64,000 nt of DNA, taken from contig NZ_VDUZ01000028.1 of the NCBI RefSeq assembly GCF_008039615.1, forward strand, positions 1 to 64,000, read 5' to 3'. The translations under genes and the position numbers were made by a program. This stretch comes from Vineibacter terrae (GTDB lineage: Bacteria > Pseudomonadota > Alphaproteobacteria > Reyranellales > Reyranellaceae). This document shows positions 27,099-55,093 of this stretch, one piece after another (positions within the stretch are counted from its first letter, which is position 1; the number at the start of each line of letters is the position of its first letter). The notes under the pieces were generated by a model. The model was not told the DNA's origin and ran no database searches. It worked only from the letters and a program-made list of their open reading frames with translations.

Positions 27099-27121
27099 CG
27101 CCTTGCCCGAGAGAGTTCGCT

Positions 27122-27207
27122 GTCATCCCGAGCGCAGCGAGGGATCTCCCGCGAACGACGCACTGTGCGCCTTGCCGCGGGAGATCCCTCGCTGCGCTCG
27201 GGATGAC
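27122..27207. repeat. dispersed inverted repeat, GTCATCCCGAGCG family, copy B
   Basis: 86 bp, the best-preserved copy: the arms are almost perfectly complementary and the core reads ACGACGCACTGTGCGCCTTG. It sits between the convergent tamB and leuS genes, where the long hairpin could end transcription from both sides. Confidence 0.88.
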
Positions 27208-27219
27208 AGGTAATCCGGC

Positions 27220-29835
<2,616 letters not shown>

Positions 29836-30202
29836 GATCTCTACTCCTGGCGCTTGCCTGGCGTCGCGCGGACATGCCGGCAAACGACGCGAAAATCAGG
29901 AACGAAGCGGCATGCCGCGCAGCCTGGGCGGCGTCAAGCATGTTGTCGTCCTGTCGGCGGGCCCTTCCTGCCGCACTGCAAAGCCTGTCGAAGCACCCAC
30001 GCTAATTCATTCATGGCGGTGAATATTCCTCGGATCATCTGTTGCGCGAATGCCACACCTTTCGTGATTCTGGCGCCATTGCCCGTCGATCGCTGATCAA
30101 GCCTTTGGACGGACACGCCTTCCAGCATAGTATGCGCCCCGGAGATTGGACGGCGATCCTCCAGTCGAGGGTCGAGGACAAGCAAGAGAGAGGGGACTAG
30201 GG
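29836..30202. other. spacer upstream of OmpA copy 1
   Basis: 367 bp between the leuS start and the first ompA-like gene. It contains the shared outer-membrane element at 30039-30062 and a clear ribosome site (GAGAGAGGGGA) just before ATG 30203. No gene is supported. Confidence 0.5.
30039..30062 (+). promoter_or_regulatory. shared outer-membrane-gene element, copy 1
   Basis: CTGTTGCGCGAATGCCACAC followed by CTTT. The same element, with one or two changes, lies upstream of the second ompA-like gene and of the porin gene, and I found it nowhere else in the window. It is 141 bp before the start codon. Likely a common operator or promoter segment; the binding protein is unknown. Confidence 0.55.
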
Positions 30203-31378
30203 ATGCGGAAGACACTGCTTGCGGGTGCCGCGATTGGCACGCTGATGGTGGCCGGCGGCGCCCAGGCCCAGGTGCAGTCGGGCCCGGGCTTCTTCGGCTA
30301 CATGGACGGGATGTACATCCTGCCTGGCAACACGGGCATGAGCGAAGCGTCGACCATTCCCGGCAAGGCGGGCCGCGGCGACGGCTGGGGCATCGACGGC
30401 AAGCTGGGCTATCGCTTCGATGGCGCGTACGACCTGGCGCTGGGCGGCCGCTACTTCGACCGCAGCAAGGGCAAGGGCGCCGGCGTCTTCGACTGGCACG
30501 GCACGAAGAACACCTATTGGAACATCGACGCCGAGGTCGGCTACAACATCACCGGCCCGGGCTACGGCGTGCGGCCGTTCATCGGCATCCGCTACCAGCA
30601 GTGGCGTGCCTCGTTCGCCGATAGCGTCGCGCCGGTCTTCGGCGGCGGCGAGTACTCGTGGGGCGTCGGCCCGCGCATCGGCGTGGATGCCTCGCTGCGC
30701 CTGACGGACATCGTCAGCCTGTTCGGCGGCATCGACACGGCGTTCCTGTACGGCAAGACCAAGGGCAAGACCAGCGTGCCGCCGGGCGGCAGCCTGAACA
30801 GCGAGCGGCTGATCTGGGATATCGGCGGCCGCATCGGCATCGACGTCGAGCTTGCGCCGCTGTGGCATCTGGGCGTCGGCTATAAGGTCGAGTGGTTTGA
30901 CGGCGTGAACCATGCGCTGTCGCAGGGCGGCGGTGGCCCGAAGGGCCGCTCGGGCGAGCTGGTGCACGGCCCGTTCGTGCGTCTGGCGTACAACTGGGGC
31001 GCGCCGCCTCCGGGTGCGCCGGCGGTGGCGCCGCCGGTGCCGGGCGCGACGCGCTCGTTCATCGTGTTCTTCGACTTCGACAAGTCGAACCTGACGCCGA
31101 CGGCGGTGCAGACGATCAAGCAGGCGTCGGACCAGGCGAAGTCTGGCCGCACGACGCGGATCGACGTGACGGGCCATACGGACCGCGCGGGCACGGATGC
31201 GTACAACATGGCGCTGTCGCTGCGCCGTGCGAACGCGGTGAAGAACGAGCTGGTGCGCACCGGCATCCCGGCGACGCAGATCGCGGTCGTGGGCCGTGGC
31301 GAGAGCCAGCCGCTGGTGCCGACGGCGGACGGTGTGCGTGAGCCGCAGAACCGCCGCGTGGAGATCGTGCTGAACTGA
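30203..31378 (+). CDS. OmpA-family outer-membrane protein, copy 1
   Basis: 391-residue outer-membrane protein. The signal peptide (1-22) ends GGAQAQ. The N-terminal beta-barrel (about 25-265) contains GYRFDGAYDLALGGRYFD, RPFIGIRYQQWRASF and GVGYKVEWFDG. A Pro-rich linker (about 272-285) leads to the OmpA C-terminal peptidoglycan-binding domain, FIVFFDFDKSNLTPTA...VTGHTDRAGTDAYNMALSLRRA...VGRGESQPLVPTADGVREPQNRR. The domain's conserved Asp and Arg residues are intact. The gene is identical to the next gene, including the terminator. It probably anchors the outer membrane to peptidoglycan. Transcription comes from its own upstream element. Confidence 0.92.
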   Translation: MRKTLLAGAAIGTLMVAGGAQAQVQSGPGFFGYMDGMYILPGNTGMSEASTIPGKAGRGDGWGIDGKLGYRFDGAYDLALGGRYFDRSKGKGAGVFDWHGTKNTYWNIDAEVGYNITGPGYGVRPFIGIRYQQWRASFADSVAPVFGGGEYSWGVGPRIGVDASLRLTDIVSLFGGIDTAFLYGKTKGKTSVPPGGSLNSERLIWDIGGRIGIDVELAPLWHLGVGYKVEWFDGVNHALSQGGGGPKGRSGELVHGPFVRLAYNWGAPPPGAPAVAPPVPGATRSFIVFFDFDKSNLTPTAVQTIKQASDQAKSGRTTRIDVTGHTDRAGTDAYNMALSLRRANAVKNELVRTGIPATQIAVVGRGESQPLVPTADGVREPQNRRVEIVLN

Positions 31379-31403
31379 TCCGTACCATCCGGGACGGAAC
31401 GCG

Positions 31404-31430
31404 ACGGGCGCCCCCCAGGGGCGCCCGTTT
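31404..31430 (+). terminator. rho-independent terminator, OmpA copy 1
   Basis: Stem ACGGGCGCCCC with complement GGGGCGCCCGT around a CCA loop, followed by a short T-run. It lies 26 bp after the stop codon and is duplicated with the gene. Confidence 0.75.
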
Positions 31431-31455
31431 CTGTTGCGAGAATGCCACATCTTCC
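31431..31455 (+). promoter_or_regulatory. shared outer-membrane-gene element, copy 2
   Basis: CTGTTGCGAGAATGCCACAT followed by CTTCC, starting immediately after the terminator of copy 1 and 140 bp before ATG 31595. It also shares GTCAAGCGC downstream with the porin copy (GTCAAAGCGC). This places a separate promoter in front of the second ompA-like gene. Confidence 0.55.
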
Positions 31456-31594
31456 AAAAATACCGCGTCAAGCGCATGGGAATCGCGTGTCGAGGCTTTT
31501 GATTGCGCGCCGTTCGGGATTAAATGCACGCGGCACGACTGGCGATCCCCGTGAGGCGGCCGCGCGGATCGTCGCCAAAGAGAGAGGTGAGTGA

Positions 31595-32776
31595 ATGAAC
31601 ATGCGGAAGACACTGCTTGCGGGTGCCGCGATTGGCACGCTGATGGTGGCCGGCGGCGCCCAGGCCCAGGTGCAGTCGGGCCCGGGCTTCTTCGGCTACA
31701 TGGACGGGATGTACATCCTGCCTGGCAACACGGGCATGAGCGAAGCGTCGACCATTCCCGGCAAGGCGGGCCGCGGCGACGGCTGGGGCATCGACGGCAA
31801 GCTGGGCTATCGCTTCGATGGCGCGTACGACCTGGCGCTGGGCGGCCGCTACTTCGACCGCAGCAAGGGCAAGGGCGCCGGCGTCTTCGACTGGCACGGC
31901 ACGAAGAACACCTATTGGAACATCGACGCCGAGGTCGGCTACAACATCACCGGCCCGGGCTACGGCGTGCGGCCGTTCATCGGCATCCGCTACCAGCAGT
32001 GGCGTGCCTCGTTCGCCGATAGCGTCGCGCCGGTCTTCGGCGGCGGCGAGTACTCGTGGGGCGTCGGCCCGCGCATCGGCGTGGATGCCTCGCTGCGCCT
32101 GACGGACATCGTCAGCCTGTTCGGCGGCATCGACACGGCGTTCCTGTACGGCAAGACCAAGGGCAAGACCAGCGTGCCGCCGGGCGGCAGCCTGAACAGC
32201 GAGCGGCTGATCTGGGATATCGGCGGCCGCATCGGCATCGACGTCGAGCTTGCGCCGCTGTGGCATCTGGGCGTCGGCTATAAGGTCGAGTGGTTTGACG
32301 GCGTGAACCATGCGCTGTCGCAGGGCGGCGGTGGCCCGAAGGGCCGCTCGGGCGAGCTGGTGCACGGCCCGTTCGTGCGTCTGGCGTACAACTGGGGCGC
32401 GCCGCCTCCGGGTGCGCCGGCGGTGGCGCCGCCGGTGCCGGGCGCGACGCGCTCGTTCATCGTGTTCTTCGACTTCGACAAGTCGAACCTGACGCCGACG
32501 GCGGTGCAGACGATCAAGCAGGCGTCGGACCAGGCGAAGTCTGGCCGCACGACGCGGATCGACGTGACGGGCCATACGGACCGCGCGGGCACGGATGCGT
32601 ACAACATGGCGCTGTCGCTGCGCCGTGCGAACGCGGTGAAGAACGAGCTGGTGCGCACCGGCATCCCGGCGACGCAGATCGCGGTCGTGGGCCGTGGCGA
32701 GAGCCAGCCGCTGGTGCCGACGGCGGACGGTGTGCGTGAGCCGCAGAACCGCCGCGTGGAGATCGTGCTGAACTGA
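31595..32776 (+). CDS. OmpA-family outer-membrane protein, copy 2
   Basis: 393 residues if translation begins at ATG 31595 (MNMRKTLL...), which has AGAGG eight bases upstream; from ATG 31601 the protein is residue-for-residue the same as copy 1. Signal peptide, eight-strand-type barrel, proline-rich linker and OmpA peptidoglycan-binding domain are as in copy 1. Absence of any divergence points to a very recent duplication or continuing gene conversion. The two genes have different leaders, so they may be expressed differently although the mature proteins are identical. Confidence 0.92.
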   Translation: MNMRKTLLAGAAIGTLMVAGGAQAQVQSGPGFFGYMDGMYILPGNTGMSEASTIPGKAGRGDGWGIDGKLGYRFDGAYDLALGGRYFDRSKGKGAGVFDWHGTKNTYWNIDAEVGYNITGPGYGVRPFIGIRYQQWRASFADSVAPVFGGGEYSWGVGPRIGVDASLRLTDIVSLFGGIDTAFLYGKTKGKTSVPPGGSLNSERLIWDIGGRIGIDVELAPLWHLGVGYKVEWFDGVNHALSQGGGGPKGRSGELVHGPFVRLAYNWGAPPPGAPAVAPPVPGATRSFIVFFDFDKSNLTPTAVQTIKQASDQAKSGRTTRIDVTGHTDRAGTDAYNMALSLRRANAVKNELVRTGIPATQIAVVGRGESQPLVPTADGVREPQNRRVEIVLN

Positions 32777-32828
32777 TCCGTACCATCCGGGACGGAACGC
32801 GACGGGCGCCCCCCAGGGGCGCCCGTTT
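31601..32828 (+). repeat. perfect 1.2-kb direct repeat, unit 2
   Basis: Second unit of the duplication, separated from unit 1 by 170 bp of unique leader. Recombination between the units would delete one gene and one leader. Confidence 0.92.
32802..32828 (+). terminator. rho-independent terminator, OmpA copy 2
   Basis: Identical hairpin to the one after copy 1 (stem ACGGGCGCCCC/GGGGCGCCCGT), followed by TTTT. Confidence 0.75.
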
Positions 32829-32887
32829 TGCGTTGGCAATTCCCGCAAGCGCACCACTCGATCTCAGGAAGGCTGGGCTTGCGTTTA

Positions 32888-33039
32888 GTCGGGCCGCGCC
32901 GCTCCAGCGGCGCTCTTCTATCAATGACTCGTCAATAGGTCAGTCCGGGTGGCGCGAGCCTCCGATGACGTGCGATTCGGCCAACGCCGGTCAAATTCGG
33001 TCAAAATGCAAGAGCGCCGCTGGAGCGGCGCGGCCCGAC
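32888..33039. repeat. paired palindromic element (REPIN-like), copy 1
   Basis: Two inverted arms, GTCGGGCCGCGCCGCTCCAG... (32888-32917) and its complement (33010-33039), about 30 bp each and bracketing 92 bp. Each arm contains its own hairpin, CGCCGCT-CC-AGCGGCG. The same arms recur at 36794-36887 with a shorter core. It sits just downstream of the DUF3576 gene and the second ompA-like gene. Confidence 0.85.
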
Positions 33040-33053
33040 CAGGCGCGGCGCCC

Positions 33054-33617
33054 TTACTGACCCGTCTGGGCGATTCGCAGCTGCCGTGCGCGCGTGAGGA
33101 TCTGGTTCTCCAGCTCCAGGCTGGTGCGCGGGTCGACACTGGCATCCACCCAGCCGCGATTGCCGCCGGTCTGGCGAAACACGGATGCACGCACGCCATC
33201 GGCCCGCAGGTCGCGATCGAGGATCGTGATCTGCACCTTCATGCGCTCGTTGGGGCTCTCCGGCGGGCTGTACCAGTCGGTGATGATGGTGCCACCGAAC
33301 GGATCAGCCGATGCCAGCGGCATGAACGATACTGTGTCCAGCGAGGCCCGCCACAGGAAGGCGTTGACCGCGATGCCGGGCTCGTCGAGCCCCTTCTTCT
33401 TGTCATCGCGCGAGCCGAACAGGCCGCCGGGGCCGAACAGCCCGCTGTCCGATGGCTGGGTGCGACCGCCGATGCCGCGCTGGATCGCATCGCGGCGGCG
33501 GTCGATCGTGTCCACATCGGCGCCCTGGTTCGAATTGCATCCGGTCAAGCTGCCTGCCGTCATGACCAGGAAGAGACCGGCGAATGCCATTGCACCCGGG
33601 CGGACGATACGATTCAT
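33054..33617 (-). CDS. DUF3576 outer-membrane lipoprotein
   Basis: 187-residue lipoprotein. Signal peptide with lipobox LTGC (Cys27). The body shows AVNAFLWRASLDTVSFMPLASADPFGGTIITDWYSPP..NERMKVQITILDRDLRADGVRASVFRQ, the conserved core of DUF3576, a family almost restricted to alphaproteobacteria and usually encoded next to leuS and lptE. Function is unknown; the neighbourhood suggests envelope assembly. The stop lies 14 bp beyond the REPIN-like element. ATG 33617 follows AGCAAGG. Confidence 0.85.
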   Translation of the reverse strand: MNRIVRPGAMAFAGLFLVMTAGSLTGCNSNQGADVDTIDRRRDAIQRGIGGRTQPSDSGLFGPGGLFGSRDDKKKGLDEPGIAVNAFLWRASLDTVSFMPLASADPFGGTIITDWYSPPESPNERMKVQITILDRDLRADGVRASVFRQTGGNRGWVDASVDPRTSLELENQILTRARQLRIAQTGQ

Positions 33618-33937
33618 CGAGCCTTGCTCCTGCGCCGCCGGCGACTCCCTGCCCCCCAGGCGGCTGCCTTAGACTTCGGGCGTTGCTGCCCAGCCGGCGT
33701 TATGAGGGACTTCCAACCGCGCGGCAAGCCGCTTGCGCATCGCATTGCAGGAACAGTCGCTGAGAAACCGCCCGGCGCCGTATCGAAATGAAACAGCCCA
33801 TGGCGTGCAGATTCCGTTTTGCGGGCGTAAGTGGCAAATCGAAACTTGGTGTGACCGACGGTGACCCGCTGTCGATGCCGCCGTCCCGGACCGCGTCCGC
33901 AGCACCCGCGATCGGCAAATAATCCTGAAGACACAGT

Positions 33938-33962
33938 CTGTTGCCGAATAGCCACACCTTCC
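33938..33962 (+). promoter_or_regulatory. shared outer-membrane-gene element, copy 3
   Basis: CTGTTGCCGAATAGCCACAC followed by CTTCC. Compared with the two ompA-like copies it has a one-base shift around GAAT-(A)G-CCACA. It ends about 30 bp upstream of the candidate -35 hexamer. Confidence 0.55.
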
Positions 33963-33992
33963 GACAGAATCATGTCAAAGCGCTTTGGTTCC

Positions 33993-34022
33993 TTGACCCT
34001 GATTGCGACCCGGTGGTTACAT
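33993..34022 (+). promoter_or_regulatory. candidate sigma-70 promoter of porin
   Basis: TTGACC (33993-33998), an 18-bp spacer, then TTACAT (34017-34022). This gives a leader of roughly 110 nt before the porin start. Confidence 0.4.
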
Positions 34023-34141
34023 GCGGCGTCGTCCGTTCGTGGCGGGGGCGGTTTGTTGGCCGGCTCAGGCTAGACCCCTCGAACCGGCCAAAGACGGTCC
34101 GACATGCGTAGCGTAATTCAGACCCACGAGAGAGGGAGAAC

Positions 34142-35359
34142 ATGAAAAAAGCACTACTGGGCTCGACCGCGCTGGTCGCCGGTGGTCTCCTCGCCGCGCC
34201 GGCGATGGCTGCCGATCCGATCAAGCTCGAGCTGCGTGGCTACTTCCAGTTCATGATCGTGGTCGGCCACACCGACCGTGACGTGGTTGGCACGACCGGA
34301 ACGAGCTATCGCCCCGAGAACCTGAAGTACGAAGGCGAAATCTGGTTCACCGGCACGACCAAGCTGGACAACGGCACCTCCATCGGTATCCGTGTCGAGC
34401 TGGAAGGCTGGTCACAGGGCGGCGGCACCACCTCGACCAACGACCAGATGGACGAGGAATACCTGTTCGCGTTCGGCGACTGGGGCCGCATCGAGTTCGG
34501 CGGCACCGACTCGGCGTCGTTCAAGATGCAGTACTCGTCGCCGTCGGCGTTGATCGGCTGGGGCTTCAACGATCACAACTTCAACTACTTCGGCAACGGC
34601 TTCAACGCCAGCAACCAGGCCGGCCGTGGCGGCAACATCCTTGGAACCGGCGCTGCCCACAATGCCGGCTTCAGCGCTGACGCCAACAAGTTCACGTACT
34701 TCACGCCGCGGTTCGCCGGCTTCCAGCTCGGCTTCTCGTACACGCCGTCGTTCGGCCTCGGCGCGCTCGCCACGTGCACTTCGCGCAACGGCAACGCGAA
34801 CTTCAACAACTGCCCGAAGAACTCCAACATCTGGCACAACGGCCTCGACATCGCGGCGAACTACCTGAACAAGTTCGGTGACGTGTCGATCGCCCTGTAC
34901 GGCGGCTACGCGACTGCCGGCTTCGATCGTGGTCCGGGCTTGGTGGGCGTTTCAACGACGCTGGGTAGCCAGGCTGGCCGCTACAAGACCTGGGCTGCGG
35001 GCGCGCAGATCGGCTTCGCCGGCTTTACGCTGGGTGGCGGTGCCGGTGGCGACAACAACGGCTTGAAGGGCAACAACCAGACCCGCTGGTATACGGCCTC
35101 GCTGATGTACGAAACGGGTCCGTGGCAGCTCTCGGCCGGCTGGTGGGGCGGTCGCAACAACGACGGCAACGCCGTGGCGGGCTCGCAGAACGCGCCGGGC
35201 AAGGACAAGATCGACTACTTCGAGCTGGGCGCCAACTACGCGCTTTCGCCGGGCATCAAGCTCACTGGCGGCGTGTTCTATTACATGGGCTCGGGCCAGA
35301 GCAAGAGCGAGAAGGCGGACTCCTGGGCGTTCGTCTTCGGTACGGCTCTGACCTTCTGA
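34142..35359 (+). CDS. general porin, alphaproteobacterial Porin_4 type
   Basis: 405-residue outer-membrane porin. The signal peptide ends at PAMA (about residue 22). The mature protein is rich in alternating aromatic/polar strands (ELRGYFQFMIVVGH, GEIWFTGTTKLDNGTSIGIRVELEG) and ends in aromatic FVFGTALTF, as barrels do. The segment FGDWGRIEFGGTDSASFKMQYSSPSAL corresponds to the porin loop 3 region. The ribosome site is GAGAGAGGGAGAAC just before ATG 34142. A strong terminator follows. Codon use and leader suggest a highly expressed protein. Pore selectivity cannot be told from the sequence. Confidence 0.92.
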   Translation: MKKALLGSTALVAGGLLAAPAMAADPIKLELRGYFQFMIVVGHTDRDVVGTTGTSYRPENLKYEGEIWFTGTTKLDNGTSIGIRVELEGWSQGGGTTSTNDQMDEEYLFAFGDWGRIEFGGTDSASFKMQYSSPSALIGWGFNDHNFNYFGNGFNASNQAGRGGNILGTGAAHNAGFSADANKFTYFTPRFAGFQLGFSYTPSFGLGALATCTSRNGNANFNNCPKNSNIWHNGLDIAANYLNKFGDVSIALYGGYATAGFDRGPGLVGVSTTLGSQAGRYKTWAAGAQIGFAGFTLGGGAGGDNNGLKGNNQTRWYTASLMYETGPWQLSAGWWGGRNNDGNAVAGSQNAPGKDKIDYFELGANYALSPGIKLTGGVFYYMGSGQSKSEKADSWAFVFGTALTF

Positions 35360-35418: not shown

Positions 35419-35439
35419 GTGGCCATATACGCCCCCATT

Positions 35440-35519
35440 GTCATCCCGAGCGAAGCGAGGGATCTCCTGAGGATCGAGGCTCCATTCGCGGGAGATCCCT
35501 CGCTTTCGCTCGGGATGAC
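35440..35519. repeat. dispersed inverted repeat, GTCATCCCGAGCG family, copy C
   Basis: 80 bp; the arms have compensating changes (CGAAGCGAG paired with CTCGCTTTCG). The right end is followed by a 13-bp tandem duplication of GGATGACAGTGAA. Located between the porin terminator and the 3' end of hemW. Confidence 0.85.
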
Positions 35520-35559
35520 AGTGAAAGGATGACAGTGAAGATGTGTGGCGCCGAGAGCG

Positions 35560-36793: not shown

Positions 36794-36887
36794 GTCGGGC
36801 CGCGCCGCTCCAGCGGCGCTCATGCAACGACGTTCCGGACGGATACGACCTTCGACACTGAGCGCCGCTGGAGCGGCGCGGCCCGAC
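36794..36887. repeat. paired palindromic element (REPIN-like), copy 2
   Basis: Arms 36794-36821 and 36860-36887 are the same sequence pair as in copy 1 (GTCGGGCCGCGCCGCTCCAG...), with a core of 38 bp. It lies between the rdgB stop and the hemW start, so it would be transcribed within that operon. Confidence 0.85.
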
Positions 36888-49911: not shown

Positions 49912-51366
49912 TCAGCCGAGGTCGAGCGGCACGAAGATCTTGGCGTTCTCGCGTCGGATCAGCAGGGCAGCGTGGTCCTGCGCCTTGGCGGCGAGCCCGC
50001 GCAGCGCGTCGATTGAGGTCACCGGCTGACCGTTGAACGAGAGCACCACGTCGCCCGGCTGGACGCCGGCGCGCGCTGCCGGTCCGGTGACGCCCTCGAC
50101 CAGCAGGCCGCCCTTCTCGTCGATCGAGCGGGCTTCCTGCGGCGACAGCGGCCGCACGGCAAGACCGAGGCGCCCCTGGGTGGCGGGGGTGCTGGAGTCG
50201 GCCTGCGCCTGCTGGTCGGCATGGCGCTCGCCGATCGTCACCGCCAGCTGCTTGGCCTCGCCGCGGCGCCAGATGTCGAGATGGGCGCGCGTGCCGGGCG
50301 CCAGGTCGGCGATGCGCGGCGGCAGGTCGCCGGAGCGCGGCACCTCGCTGCCGTTCAGCTTCAGGATCACGTCGCCCGACTGCAGGCCGGCCTTGGCGGC
50401 GGGGCTGTCCTGCTCGACGCTGCTGACCAGCACACCGCCGGGCTTGGCGAGGCCGAAGGCGTCGGCCAGCGCCTGGGTCACATCCTGCACGGTGGCGCCG
50501 AGCCAGCCGCGATGCACGGTGCCATGGGCCACGATCTGCTTCTGGACCTTCATCGCGACGCTGATCGGGATCGCGAACGACAGGCCCTGGTAGCCGCCGG
50601 TGTCGCTGTAGATCTGCGAATTGATGCCGACCACCTCGCCGCGGGTGTTGAACAGCGGTCCGCCGGAGTTGCCGGGGTTGACCGGCACGTCGGTCTGGAT
50701 GAACGGCACATAGGACTGGTTCGGCAGGGCCCGCGAGGTCGCCGACACGATGCCCGCCGTCACGGTGTTCTCGAAGCCGTAGGGCGAGCCGATCGCCAGC
50801 ACCCATTCGCCGACATGGACCTTGTCGGCATCGCCGATGGTGACGGTGGGCAGGTCCTTGGCGTTGATCTTGAGGACCGCGACGTCGGTCGCCTGGTCGA
50901 GGCCGATCACCTTGGCGGCGAACTCACGCTGGTCGGAGAGCTTCACCGTGACCGTCCTGGCGTTTTTCACGACATGCGCGTTGGTGAGGATCAGGCCGTC
51001 GGATGCCACGATGAAGCCGGATCCGAGGCCCCTGACCGGGCGGTCCGGGCGCTCCAGCCCGAAGCGGCGCGCGAAATCCGGCGGCATGCCGGGGAACATC
51101 GGCGTGTCGTCCGACGCCGCCCTGGCGGTGCCTTCGACCCGGATATTGACCACCGCAGGCCCGAAGCGTTCGACGATCGGTGAGAAATCCGGGCCGCCCA
51201 TGGCCGGCGCGGCGGTGGCGGCACGCGCCGGCTCGTCGCCCAGGCCGGCTGCGAGCGCGGCGGTCGAGGTCAGGGTCTTGGGCGCGAATTCGACGATGGC
51301 GCCGCCCAGCACGCTCACCAGGGCGACGGCGGCGAGACCGCGGGTCAGGATGTTCTTCTTGGACAT
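49912..51366 (-). CDS. periplasmic serine protease, DegP/DegQ (HtrA) family, paralogue 1
   Basis: 484-residue HtrA protease/chaperone. Signal peptide or anchor at the N-terminus (about 8-40). The trypsin-like domain has His in LTNAHVV, Asp in ATDVAVLKI and Ser in VPVNPGNSGGPLFN. Two PDZ domains follow: about 275-370 (GWLGATVQDVTQALADAFGL...GLQSGDVILKLNG) and about 390-484 (GRLGLAVRPLSPQEA...GVQPGDVVLSFNG). It lies downstream of the histidine kinase gene on the same strand. A second, clearly related protease gene lies on the other side of the two-component system; the two differ mainly in linkers and N-termini. Confidence 0.92.
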   Translation of the reverse strand: MSKKNILTRGLAAVALVSVLGGAIVEFAPKTLTSTAALAAGLGDEPARAATAAPAMGGPDFSPIVERFGPAVVNIRVEGTARAASDDTPMFPGMPPDFARRFGLERPDRPVRGLGSGFIVASDGLILTNAHVVKNARTVTVKLSDQREFAAKVIGLDQATDVAVLKINAKDLPTVTIGDADKVHVGEWVLAIGSPYGFENTVTAGIVSATSRALPNQSYVPFIQTDVPVNPGNSGGPLFNTRGEVVGINSQIYSDTGGYQGLSFAIPISVAMKVQKQIVAHGTVHRGWLGATVQDVTQALADAFGLAKPGGVLVSSVEQDSPAAKAGLQSGDVILKLNGSEVPRSGDLPPRIADLAPGTRAHLDIWRRGEAKQLAVTIGERHADQQAQADSSTPATQGRLGLAVRPLSPQEARSIDEKGGLLVEGVTGPAARAGVQPGDVVLSFNGQPVTSIDALRGLAAKAQDHAALLIRRENAKIFVPLDLG

Positions 51367-51438
51367 ATCGGGCTCCGTGTCGTCGCGGCGCTGGAAGGCA
51401 CCGGACTGTTGCAGTGGAGCCGATGTAGTCGGCCAAGC

Positions 51439-52788
51439 TTAAGGTTTGCTTAGGGGCAGCGGCTGCATGTCGATTTCCGAGGTGCCGGCGGCGAAGACGA
51501 CGCGGGCGCTCAGGCCGCCCGCGCGTGAATCGCCCAGCACGATGTCGGCGCGGTGGCGCTCGGCGATGACCTTGACGATGGCAAGGCCCAGGCCGCTGCC
51601 CGGCTCGTGCGTATCCTTGCCGCGATAGAACCGGTCGAACACATGTGGCCGGTCCTGGGCCGCAATGCCGGGCCCGGAGTCGGCGACCTCGAGGTAAGGG
51701 CGCCCGTCGGCGATGCCCACCGTCACGTCCACCGTGCCGCCCGGCGGGGTGTAGCGAATGGCGTTGTCCAGCAGGTTGCTGATGAGCACACCCAAGGCGG
51801 CGGGATCGCCAACGGTCCTGGCATTGTCGTCCAGCGCCGCAGCGCCGAGGTCGATCCCCTTGGCGATCGCGACGTCGACCTGGCCGGCAATGGCCTCGCG
51901 CGCCAGGGCCGCGAGGTCGGCGGCGGCCGGCGGCGGTCCGGCCGCGCCCGGCTCCTGGCGGGCCAGCGTCAGGAGCTGACCGACCACATGCGTCATGCGG
52001 TCGAGCCCGCGCTTGAGCTCACCGACCGCCTTGGCGCGCGCCGCATCGTCCGTCGCCCGCTCCACCAGCTGGGCCTGGAGCCGCAGCGCCGCCAGCGGCG
52101 TGCGCAGCTCGTGCGCAGCGTCGGCGACGAAAGCGCGCTGGAGCGACAGCGCCTTCTCGAGGCGCGCCAGCAGGTCGTTGAGCGCATCGACCACCGGCGC
52201 GATCTCCGCCGGCGGCGAGGACAGCGCCAGCAGCCCGAGCTCGCCCGGCCTGCGGCGGGTCAATGCAGCCGTGAGCTGCTCGAGCGGCTGCAGCCCGCGT
52301 CCGACCGCGATCCAGATGCCGATGGCCAGCGCCGGCAGCAGCAGCAGCGAGGGCACCAGGATGTGCGATGCCGCCGACAGCGCCTGGCGTCGCCGCACGC
52401 TCATCGGCTGCGCCACCTGCACCGTGCGGCCCTGGAGCTGCAGCGCGAAGACCCGCCATGTGCCGTCGCTGGTCTCGACGTCGGCGTAGCCCATGCGCGC
52501 CCAGTTGGGCAGCACGCGATGCGGGTGCGAGAAGTAGATCGTCACGCCGTCGCGGCGCCAGATCTGCACCACCAGGTCGAGCGCCGGATCGGGCGTGACG
52601 AGCCCGGGCACCAGCGCCATGTCCATGTTTCGCTCGCCCACGGACAAGGCCACCTGGCGCAGCTGGTAGTCGAAGAGCGTGTCGACCTCCTGGCGCGCGA
52701 TGCGGTAGGTGACCACGGCGCTCAGGCCGACGATGGCCGTGGCCGCTGCCATCAGCACCAGCAGGAGGTTGCGGCGGATCGACCTCAT
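51439..52788 (-). CDS. sensor histidine kinase (QseC/PmrB-like)
   Basis: 449-residue membrane kinase. N-terminal helix about 7-30, periplasmic sensor about 31-140 (2CSK_N-like) and second helix about 145-167. Dimerisation/phosphotransfer segment FVADAAHELRTPLAALRLQAQL with the H-box His. The ATPase domain shows NLLDNAIRYTPPGG, VADSGPGI, FDRFYRG and GSGLGLAIVKVIAERH. Its start overlaps the response regulator stop by 4 bp, so the two are translated together. Flanking HtrA proteases suggest that it senses envelope conditions, but the signal is unknown. Confidence 0.92.
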   Translation of the reverse strand: MRSIRRNLLLVLMAAATAIVGLSAVVTYRIARQEVDTLFDYQLRQVALSVGERNMDMALVPGLVTPDPALDLVVQIWRRDGVTIYFSHPHRVLPNWARMGYADVETSDGTWRVFALQLQGRTVQVAQPMSVRRRQALSAASHILVPSLLLLPALAIGIWIAVGRGLQPLEQLTAALTRRRPGELGLLALSSPPAEIAPVVDALNDLLARLEKALSLQRAFVADAAHELRTPLAALRLQAQLVERATDDAARAKAVGELKRGLDRMTHVVGQLLTLARQEPGAAGPPPAAADLAALAREAIAGQVDVAIAKGIDLGAAALDDNARTVGDPAALGVLISNLLDNAIRYTPPGGTVDVTVGIADGRPYLEVADSGPGIAAQDRPHVFDRFYRGKDTHEPGSGLGLAIVKVIAERHRADIVLGDSRAGGLSARVVFAAGTSEIDMQPLPLSKP

Positions 52789-53450
52789 GGCTGTCGCGGC
52801 ATCATGTAGCCGACGCCGCGGACGGTGCGGATCCAGCCGGCGCCGAGCTTGCGGCGCAGGGCATGGACATGCACCTCGATGGCGTTGCTTTCGACCTCCT
52901 CGCCCCAGCCGTAGATTGCCTCCTCCAGGCGCGAGCGGGAGAATGGCATGCCAGGGCGCTGCAGCAGCGTGCGCAGCAGCGCGAACTCGCGCGTGGTGAG
53001 CCGCACCGGCGCGCCGTCCAGCGTCGTCTCGTGCCGTGCCGGATCGAGCGCCAGCGCACCATGGCGCAGCACCGCCTCGCGCTGGCCGGAAGGGCGGCGC
53101 AGCAGCGCCCGTACCCGCGCCAGCAGCTCGTCGAGGTCGAACGGCTTCACGAGATAGTCGTCGGCGCCGGCGTCGAGGCCCGTCACGCGATCGCCGACGG
53201 CATCGCGCGCCGTCACCACCAGCACCGGCATCTCGCTGCCGTGGGCGCGCGCCGTGCGCAGGACATCGAGGCCGCCTTTGCCGGGCAGGCCCAGGTCGAG
53301 CAGGATCAGGTCGTAGGGTTCGGCCTGCAGCGCCGCCTCGGCGTCGACACCGTCACGCACCCAGTCGACGGCATAGCCCTCCTGGCGCAGCGCCGTGCGC
53401 ACGCTCTCGCCGATCATGCGATCGTCCTCGACAACAAGCAGTCGCATCAC
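52785..53450 (-). CDS. OmpR/PhoB-family response regulator (QseB/PmrA-like)
   Basis: 221-residue regulator. Receiver domain: acidic pair VVEDDRM, phosphorylation site Asp52 in LILLDLGLPG, Thr/Ala in LVVTARDA and Lys in YLVKPFDLDELLARVRALLRR. Winged-helix effector: LTTREFALLRTLLQRPGMPFSRSRLEEAIYGW..VESNAIEVHVHALRRKLG...IRTVRGVGYMM. The partner is the overlapping downstream kinase. Likely targets are the two neighbouring protease genes; candidate palindromic operators lie before the second one. Confidence 0.93.
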   Translation of the reverse strand: MMRLLVVEDDRMIGESVRTALRQEGYAVDWVRDGVDAEAALQAEPYDLILLDLGLPGKGGLDVLRTARAHGSEMPVLVVTARDAVGDRVTGLDAGADDYLVKPFDLDELLARVRALLRRPSGQREAVLRHGALALDPARHETTLDGAPVRLTTREFALLRTLLQRPGMPFSRSRLEEAIYGWGEEVESNAIEVHVHALRRKLGAGWIRTVRGVGYMMPRQP

Positions 53451-53526
53451 CGACCTCGTCGTTCGAGACGACTATCGCATGAGCAGGCTTGTCGTGCATG
53501 GCGCACTGCGCTCTGGATGACGGATC

Positions 53527-54987
53527 TCAGCCCAGGGTCAGCGGCAGGAACAGCTTGGCACCCTCGCGCCGGATCAGCAGCGCGGCATGATGGCCGCTCT
53601 TGTCCGCCAGCGTGCGCAGCTTCTCGACCGTCGTCACCGGCTCGCCGTTGATCGCCAGCACGACATCGCCGGGCTGCATGCCGGCGCGGGCCGCCGGGCC
53701 CGAAACGGACTGCACCAGCAAGCCGCCGCCTTCGTCGAGCGCATCGGCCTCCTTGGGCGACAGGGCACGCACAGATAGCCCCAGCCGGCCCTGGCCCCGC
53801 GCCGGCGCGGCCGGTGCCGCCGCGGCTTCGACCTTGAGCGCGCCGACCACGACGGCGAGCTGCCTGGTCTCGCCGCGCCGCCATACGTCGAGCGTGCTGC
53901 GCGCGCCGGGCGCCAGGTCGGCGACCTTGGGCGGCAGATCGAAGGAGCGGTTGATCGCCACACCGTCGATCGCCAGCACCACGTCGCCCGGCTGCAGGCC
54001 GGCCTCGGCGGCCGGGCCGTTCTTGTCGACGTTGTTCACCAGCGCGCCACGCGGTGTGGGCAGGCCGAAGGCGTCAGCCAGCGCCTGGGAGACATCCTGC
54101 ACGCCGGCGCCCAGCCAGCCGCGCCGGATCACGCCATCACTCTCCAGCCTCTTGGCGACCTTCATCGCGACATCGATCGGCACCGCGAATGACAAGCCCT
54201 GGAAGCCGCCCGTGTCGGTGTAGATCTGCGAGTTGACGCCGATCACCTCCCCGTTGGCGTTGAACAGCGGGCCGCCGGAGTTGCCGGGATTGACCGGCAC
54301 GTCGGTCTGGATGAACGGCACGTAAGCCTGATGCGGCAGCGACCGGGTGGTCGCCGACACGATGCCGGCAGTGGCCGTGCTGTCGAAGCCGTGGGGCGAG
54401 CCGATCGCCAGCACCCAGGCGCCGACGCGCAGGCGGGTAGGATCGCCGATGACCACGGTCGGCAGGTTCTGGGCGTCGATCTTCAACAGCGCCACGTCGC
54501 TGGGACGATCAAGGCCGATCACCTTGGCGGTGAACTCACGCTGATCGGACAGGCGCACCGTCACCGTGGTGGAGTCGGCGACGACATGGGCGCTGGTCAG
54601 GATCACGCCGTCAGGGTTGATGATGAAGCCGGAGCCAAGTCCGAATGTCGGTTGGTTGTCCGGGCGGCTGGGCGCGCCGAAGGCGTGCGGCTGGGTGACC
54701 GGCGGCTGGCCAGTCTGCGGCGCTTCGCCGGGGCCCGGCGTGCTGCCGTTGCCCTCGACCGCCACGTTCACAACCGCCGGTCCGTAGCGCTCGACGATGG
54801 CTGAAAAATCCGGGCCGACGACGGGAGATACCGGTGACGCTGCCGGTGTCGCCGGGGCATCGAGCCAGCCTGCCGCTCGTGCCATGGGCGCTGCGGAGGT
54901 GACGGGATCGAATAGGCTGATGCCGCCGGCCAGCACGGCGATGAGCGCGCCGATCGCCAGGCCGCGGGTTGGAAGTCGGTCGCGCAT
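53527..54987 (-). CDS. periplasmic serine protease, DegP/DegQ (HtrA) family, paralogue 2
   Basis: 486-residue HtrA protease. ATG 54987 (MRDRLPTRG) follows GGAGGGCGAC; the frame is open to 55077, but that extension is not signal-like. After a hydrophobic leader come the catalytic His in LTSAHVV, Asp in PSDVALLKI and Ser in VPVNPGNSGGPLFN. PDZ1 starts GWLGAGVQDVSQALADAFGL, PDZ2 starts GRLGLSVRALSPKEADAL. Colinear with paralogue 1 throughout, including the C-terminal LIRREGAKLFLPLTLG. It is the first gene of the protease-regulator-kinase-protease block; 76 bp separate it from the response regulator. Confidence 0.92.
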   Translation of the reverse strand: MRDRLPTRGLAIGALIAVLAGGISLFDPVTSAAPMARAAGWLDAPATPAASPVSPVVGPDFSAIVERYGPAVVNVAVEGNGSTPGPGEAPQTGQPPVTQPHAFGAPSRPDNQPTFGLGSGFIINPDGVILTSAHVVADSTTVTVRLSDQREFTAKVIGLDRPSDVALLKIDAQNLPTVVIGDPTRLRVGAWVLAIGSPHGFDSTATAGIVSATTRSLPHQAYVPFIQTDVPVNPGNSGGPLFNANGEVIGVNSQIYTDTGGFQGLSFAVPIDVAMKVAKRLESDGVIRRGWLGAGVQDVSQALADAFGLPTPRGALVNNVDKNGPAAEAGLQPGDVVLAIDGVAINRSFDLPPKVADLAPGARSTLDVWRRGETRQLAVVVGALKVEAAAAPAAPARGQGRLGLSVRALSPKEADALDEGGGLLVQSVSGPAARAGMQPGDVVLAINGEPVTTVEKLRTLADKSGHHAALLIRREGAKLFLPLTLG

Positions 54988-55093
54988 GTCGCCCTCCGTC
55001 GTCCATCGGGCCGCGATCATCCGGGGCGACGTCGGCGCATGATGCTGCGGGCCAGTGAGAACAGGCTGACAGCGCATCCCGGACTGCGGGCAG

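Follow-up and report, generated by a model that had tools for sequence, protein, structure and literature searches.

What control, if any, do three outer-membrane protein genes of Vineibacter terrae share? The 64,000-nucleotide (nt) stretch of DNA analysed here (contig NZ_VDUZ01000028.1, hereafter the window) carries two ompA-like genes, ompA1 and ompA2, and a porin gene, each preceded by a copy of a short element, which a reading made without database searches (the sequence-only reading) took to be the operator of an envelope regulator or an extended promoter. To our knowledge, the control of outer-membrane protein levels in Alphaproteobacteria outside a few model species is poorly understood. 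Our results support the former guess: the element is an 18-letter dyad, TGTTGC-N6-GCCACA, that has the looks of a real, functional operator and that, from its sequence and setting, we predict to be very probably the landing site of an outer-envelope regulator. What is new here is the dyad with its constant spacing, the putative regulon that it marks in the family, its spread through the class and its geometry relative to promoters.

In the flexible form in which the element had been written, the copies are CTGTTGCGCGAATGCCACA (30039-30057), CTGTTGCGAGAATGCCACA (31431-31449) and CTGTTGCCGAATAGCCACA (33938-33956), before ompA1, ompA2 and the porin gene, just where the sequence-only reading had placed them. 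A pattern search of the window returned these three matches and no others (shuffle mean 0.01), as had also been claimed, and in the whole 8.76 Mb genome the flexible pattern is confined to the same three copies, the reversed pattern giving none. The shared element itself stands; its supposed gap of 1-2 nt and optional A do not, for a gapless alignment of all three reads TGTTGC-N6-GCCACA, starting one nucleotide further on in each case (Table 1). The dyad so defined is an imperfect inverted repeat with half-sites TGTTGC and TGTGGC, and its general form, TGTKRC-N6-GYMACA, occurs three times in the window (shuffle mean 0.02). Because ompA1 and ompA2 have an identical block of 1,228 nt in common, the elements before them may not be independent of each other; independence does hold for the porin copy and for those in other genomes. 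The sequence GTCAA(A)GCGC, said to be common to two of the copies, is a weak likeness, with GTCAANGCGC alone found four times in the window against a chance mean of 1.5, and we rejected it as a second conserved element, GTCAAA being kept only in three same-genus leaders of nine aligned.

Relatives of the porin preserve the dyad. The closest named matches to the porin come from Reyranella, Enhydrobacter and alphaproteobacterial metagenome-assembled genomes, and TGTKRC-N6-GCCACA precedes the porin in 47 of 64 named Reyranellaceae loci (70 loci less six with truncated genes or scarcely any upstream DNA; several are paralogues from one organism), lying 36 nt before TTGAC in 38 of these and 37 nt before it in nine. 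Comparison of the leaders shows an inverted repeat of fixed spacing in which the half-sites are kept and the spacer varies between genera. The usual form in Reyranella is TGTGAC-AAAGAC-GCCACA (the spacer being mostly AAAGAC), and in genus g5 three porin leaders hold the perfect palindrome TGTGGC-N6-GCCACA around GTTCCT or GTCCGT. Within the genus of the window, one genome (G003) retains the dyad before its porin, and a close ompA homologue in G002 is preceded by TGTTGC-GGGAAT-GCCACA. The main conserved blocks in nine chosen leaders are the half-sites, a GAAT-like block, a CTTGACCC box and the ribosome-binding region; CTTGACCC, at the predicted porin promoter, is invariant across these nine aligned leaders from three genera. 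The flexible pattern, for its part, was found in four of 101 genomes: in our own; ahead of the porin gene in G003; within coding DNA in G014, where the match is N10-spaced and is not the dyad; and in G031, about 200 nt before the gene of an exported protein. Relatives of this protein (EHVVATxxAEWRxLWSRVG) also have the site, so that the gene carries the dyad upstream in three Reyranella genomes (loci L005 in G031, L188 in G022 and L203 in G010).

We searched ten genomes of the family for TGTKRC-N6-GCCACA and used the reversed pattern, which contains CpG and is an imperfect yardstick, as the control; the motif gave 72 strand hits, none of them in G001, and the control gave 30. There are 56 distinct sites in the ten genomes. 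Of these, 11 in front of porin or ompA genes had served as seeds; without them 45 remain, one of which (C31, in our own genome) was known beforehand. Among these 45, 38 are intergenic, and 35 precede a gene start by no more than 350 base pairs (bp), against three intergenic sites of 24 for the control in the same genomes (Fisher p about 6e-9; local non-coding background 19% and 15%). In the family, then, the motif is not equally common away from gene starts. The 41 proteins flanking the first 40 family sites (within 350 bp, on either side) include 16 matches to OMP_b-brl, 15 to OmpA and 14 to Surface_Ag_2, which overlap, as well as three to NlpC/P60 and two to Gcw_chp, the others being metabolic and partly encoded across a divergent region. 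Outer-membrane barrels, with 16 of the 41 proteins, are thus the largest class of neighbours. Among the families listed, OmpA was matched twice in 75 comparison genes, drawn at random from 278 other genes in the fetched family and class loci, and the first member of this comparison set is itself a porin.

Another regularity lies in the distance from the dyad to the promoter. Promoters were called with a hand-weighted -35/-10 scorer as the best match between dyad and start codon, and all transcription starts given here are predictions. Of 60 non-redundant sites, 21 have the dyad centre between -79 and -83 on this scale, where 500 shuffles gave 2.4 on average and 6 at most; 34 of the 60 have it within intervals around -70, -81 and -92, set after the first list had been viewed (shuffle mean 9.0, maximum 17). 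An activator of class I, which touches RNA polymerase from upstream, needs a geometry of helical turns of this kind. The centres do lie upstream of the -35 box and in helical phase over the promoters, in so far as predicted promoters, post hoc intervals and a best-fitting period of 11.4 can tell. A third half-site 7-11 nt downstream of the dyad was also considered, with AAT[GA][CT]C at seven of 86 sites (mean 0.8) and GAA[AT] at 15 of 86 in its best interval (mean 4.8), both chosen post hoc; a half-site matrix scan for it showed no distinct maximum (z no higher than 1.8), which leaves it as a lead only.

Outside the family we drew 189 genomes evenly from the class. Of the 100 class sites examined, 65 are intergenic, and 57 precede a gene by no more than 350 bp, on a local non-coding background of 13%. 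Among the sites listed, the first 60 were chosen by hand, partly from genomes with several hits, and gave 45 intergenic sites, and the next 40 gave 20; two more listed sites, from G127, one coding and one intergenic, stand outside the 100, and 12 genomes picked mostly for their many sites (34 of 41 intergenic) were not used as a test. Pfam matches among the 58 proteins flanking the first 60 sites comprise Porin_4 (8), Clp_N of ClpB (4), DUF3576, TonB receptor, DcaP, Porin_2 and OmpA (3 each) and Porin_O_P (2), to which ClpX (L307) and BamA (L394) were added by eye. The arrangement seen in the window, with a DUF3576 gene and a porin gene diverging and the site between them, is also present in L266, L274, L284, L303, L390 and L403 (some named by eye). 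Upstream dyads also accompany clpB-like genes in L257, L260, L301, L304, L348 and L361, the last two identified by eye.

The symmetry of the dyad, its intergenic sites, the outer-membrane proteins as their largest target class and the near-constant distance to predicted promoters all fit the operator of an envelope regulator. We consider it probable, on these sequence comparisons, that a dimeric activator uses the dyad as its operator to control an outer-membrane regulon; binding by a protein, its dimeric state and the activating effect are what we infer. A homodimeric protein would bind the 18-bp operator TGTKRC-N6-GYMACA (here TGTTGC-N6-GCCACA) ahead of a promoter of sigma70 type, the centre of the dyad preceding the start by about 82 bp at the porin gene and by about 92 bp at both ompA genes. 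As these distances differ by about one helical turn, the bound protein and RNA polymerase would share one face of the DNA, and the protein would activate transcription through contact from upstream. The largest class of its targets would be outer-membrane proteins (porins, OmpA-type barrels, Gcw_chp barrels and TonB receptors), joined by some envelope enzymes and, beyond the family, by several clpB genes. For the wider proposal that the dyad marks an undescribed regulon through much of the Alphaproteobacteria, in which one dimeric activator, acting from a phase-locked upstream TGTKRC-N6-GYMACA site, would control porins, OmpA-type barrels, TonB receptors and perhaps BamA and ClpB, and would fill the role that OmpR and sigma-E have in enterobacteria, we see an even chance. 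Now that the operator is defined to 18 bp, with its targets listed and its distance to promoters nearly constant, the question becomes directly testable and the regulon predictable in other genomes, and the dyads before several clpB genes suggest a control possibly common to outer-membrane load and protein repair.

Several observations weigh against an outer-membrane activator. In our own genome five of six porin paralogues are without a strict motif nearby, that of the window being the only one to have it, and 11 of 14 OmpA-like matches are without a strict site, the exceptions being the window pair and C31:86103. Nine strict sites occur in this genome; three of them (C20, C38 and C45) are in coding DNA, a fourth (C1) is intergenic and not directly upstream of a gene, and an NlpC/P60 gene begins 135 nt beyond another (C39). 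With two mismatches allowed, this genome shows no excess (387 strand hits against 509 for the reversed control). Either the regulon in this genome is selective or weaker sites were missed. Among the named porin loci, 17 of 64 are without the strict dyad, two of these, one from Reyranella sp. CPCC 100927 and one from a metagenome-assembled genome, having the one-base variant GACACA in the leader. The 189 class genomes gave hardly any excess (231 strand hits against 208 for the reversed control), and the best-fitting spacing period is not 10.5, because the clusters stand about 11 apart. The calls of intergenic and coding DNA come from a codon-model gene caller written for this analysis, and like the promoter weights it is of our own making. 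No regulator gene carries the site repeatedly in the loci examined, each of the three that have it being seen once: an atypical OmpR-type response regulator (PF00072 and PF00486; L417, 2698-3537, in G002) with a strict dyad 128 bp upstream and, by eye, an ArsR-like gene in G005 (L218) and a sigma-factor-like gene in L265. The OmpR-type regulator, a single case, could be a candidate for the dyad-binding protein.

Among the entries listed, literature searches gave no description of this dyad, and we compared it with published motifs in 97 footprints, counting perfect palindromes on both strands. As given in the available parts of the papers cited, the motifs are CAAN2-5TTG (PMC9223101) and GCAn9TGC (PMC7240162) for NtrX, TGA-N8-TGA for CenR (PMC9275681) and GCC-N8-GCC or TTGC-N3-GCAA for ChvI (PMC9731502), and a 14-bp consensus has been published for BvrR (PMC9491525, PMC10538546), which we judged through the motifs of its relative ChvI only; for ErxR no binding motif was found in the available part of PMC5780451. 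CAAN2-5TTG matched seven of the 97 footprints (shuffle mean 2.6, range 0-9) and GCC-N8-GCC matched 11 (mean 4.7, range 0-12), and there was no match for GCAn9TGC (mean 1.0, range 0-5), TGA-N8-TGA (mean 1.1), TTGC-N3-GCAA (mean 0.06) or the CRP/FNR sites TGTGA-N6-TCACA and TTGAT-N4-ATCAA. The site of CtrA was rejected in the same test.

It is nonetheless possible, if unlikely, that the dyad is the operator of a known envelope regulator, NtrX, ChvI/BvrR or CenR, whose motif has been incompletely published, NtrX being the best of these. The outer TGT-N12-ACA of the dyad, which is present by construction of our motif, is a spacing given for PpsR/CrtJ and QseF in the parts available of papers on them. 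It is the spacing of Fis-type helix-turn-helix proteins such as these. Scoring 150 of 168 candidates in one Reyranella genome (G005) gave three HTH_8 matches, which from their sequences we take to be an NtrC-like protein with GAFTGA, an NtrX-like protein without it and a RegA-like protein; lacking the GAFTGA loop, the NtrX-like protein could work at sigma70 promoters. Against this, none of the published NtrX, CenR and ChvI motifs rises above the shuffle range in the footprints, and no porin is among the NtrX targets that chromatin immunoprecipitation reported in R. sphaeroides, in the part of PMC7240162 covered. The same operator might instead serve a protein that represses or only modulates, for example through looping or nucleoid structure, and the several sites whose low scores give no convincing promoter would suit this; we hold it to be improbable, as in the well-scored cases the dyad is clear of the predicted -35 and -10 boxes and start, with centres clustering near -70, -81 and -92.

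The other proposal of the sequence-only reading, an extended promoter, or more broadly a core promoter element or a site for an alternative sigma factor, draws on the near-constant distance to the -35 box within porins. It fares badly, and we think it very improbable: at the three window genes 36-49 nt separate the dyad from the predicted -35 box downstream, which leaves the dyad outside sigma contacts, it is palindromic, its distances elsewhere differ by about a helical turn, and in the porins the -35 box is conserved separately. An element of the messenger RNA leader, riboswitch-like or the target of a small RNA, would agree with the conservation of the porin 5' leader past the promoter, and is scarcely credible, since the dyad precedes the predicted start; the one Rfam match in 29850-34200, to a microRNA model over the 32881-33046 repeat, is below the threshold of that family. 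Chance, or common ancestry of duplicated leaders, could be argued from ompA1 and ompA2, which are duplicates. It is hardly tenable for the porin leader and for leaders in other genera and families, which are not, nor for a position and target class far from chance, and it is contradicted by the 47 porin loci and 38 intergenic family sites described above.

Table 1. Operator dyads, predicted promoters and genes in the part of the window that holds the element.
Feature	Position	Strand	Basis
Operator dyad TGTTGC-GCGAAT-GCCACA before ompA1	30040..30057	+	Pattern search
Predicted ompA1 promoter TTGGAC-N17-TAGTAT, dyad centre about -91.5	30105..30133	+	Prediction
ompA1, barrel and OmpA domain (ATG 30203)	30203..31378	+	Inferred via ompA2 Pfam matches, identical from 31601 on
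Operator dyad TGTTGC-GAGAAT-GCCACA before ompA2	31432..31449	+	Pattern search
Predicted ompA2 promoter TTGATT-N15-TTAAAT (scorer) or TTTTGA-N17-TTAAAT (by eye), dyad centre about -91.5	31497..31525	+	Prediction
ompA2, PF00691 OmpA domain and PF05150 barrel match (ATG 31595 or 31601)	31595..32776	+	Pfam
DUF3576 gene (PF12100), divergent from porin across third operator	33054..33617	-	Pfam
Operator dyad TGTTGC-CGAATA-GCCACA before porin	33939..33956	+	Pattern search
Predicted porin promoter TTGACC-N18-TTACAT, dyad centre about -81.5	33993..34022	+	Prediction
Porin, PF13609 Porin_4 (ATG 34142)	34142..35359	+	Pfam

The surroundings of these genes hold further features. The block common to the ompA genes is 100% identical between 30203-31430 and 31601-32828, starting at the ompA1 start codon and ending just before the second operator, and identical blocks behind differing leaders suggest that an older tandem duplicate underwent gene conversion (or that the identity stems from the assembly); G002 has one close ompA homologue against the tandem pair of the window. 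The ompA2 dyad adjoins a terminator-like hairpin, seen by eye, behind ompA1. Past the predicted porin start, the 5' leader (34025-34141) is strongly conserved within the genus (also in L114 and L116) and is possibly structured. Between ompA2 and the DUF3576 gene lies an inverted repeat (32881-33046) with 37-nt arms, 92% complementary and 92 nt apart, and a stretch resembling it seems, by eye and from translations, to be present near 36800. Short intergenic repeats at 27100-27250 and 35430-35540, with similar translations (HPERSEGSP / IPSAARDLP), are probably palindromic elements akin to repetitive extragenic palindromes. The OmpR-type two-component system of the window (51439-53450) has no operator copy by the window pattern search, which does not disprove a link; it is flanked, in the region 49912-55020, by two similar exported proteins that by eye are DegP/HtrA-like.

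How does the operator that we propose compare with known systems? The NtrX regulon resembles its putative regulon in having envelope targets and a wide presence in Alphaproteobacteria, and differs in its motifs, CAAN2-5TTG and GCAn9TGC, which do not match the dyad. The ChvI/BvrR regulon likewise takes in outer-membrane genes, such as omp25, in the available part of PMC10538546, but the ChvI repeats do not match. At the operators of PpsR/CrtJ, which belong to photosynthesis genes, and at the upstream sites of QseF (GlrR), the outer TGT and ACA stand at the same 12-nt spacing as in the dyad, according to the parts available of papers on these regulators; the dyad differs from them in its inner bases (KRC/GYM), its outer-membrane targets and its position at about -82. 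The class I promoters of CRP in Escherichia coli, which have a sigma70 promoter and centres at -61.5, -72.5, -82.5 and -92.5, offer the likeness in geometry, with sites stepped upstream by the helical turn, whereas the TGTG and CACA of CRP are spaced by 10 nt and those of the dyad by 8. PpsR/CrtJ and QseF are regulators with a Fis-type helix-turn-helix.

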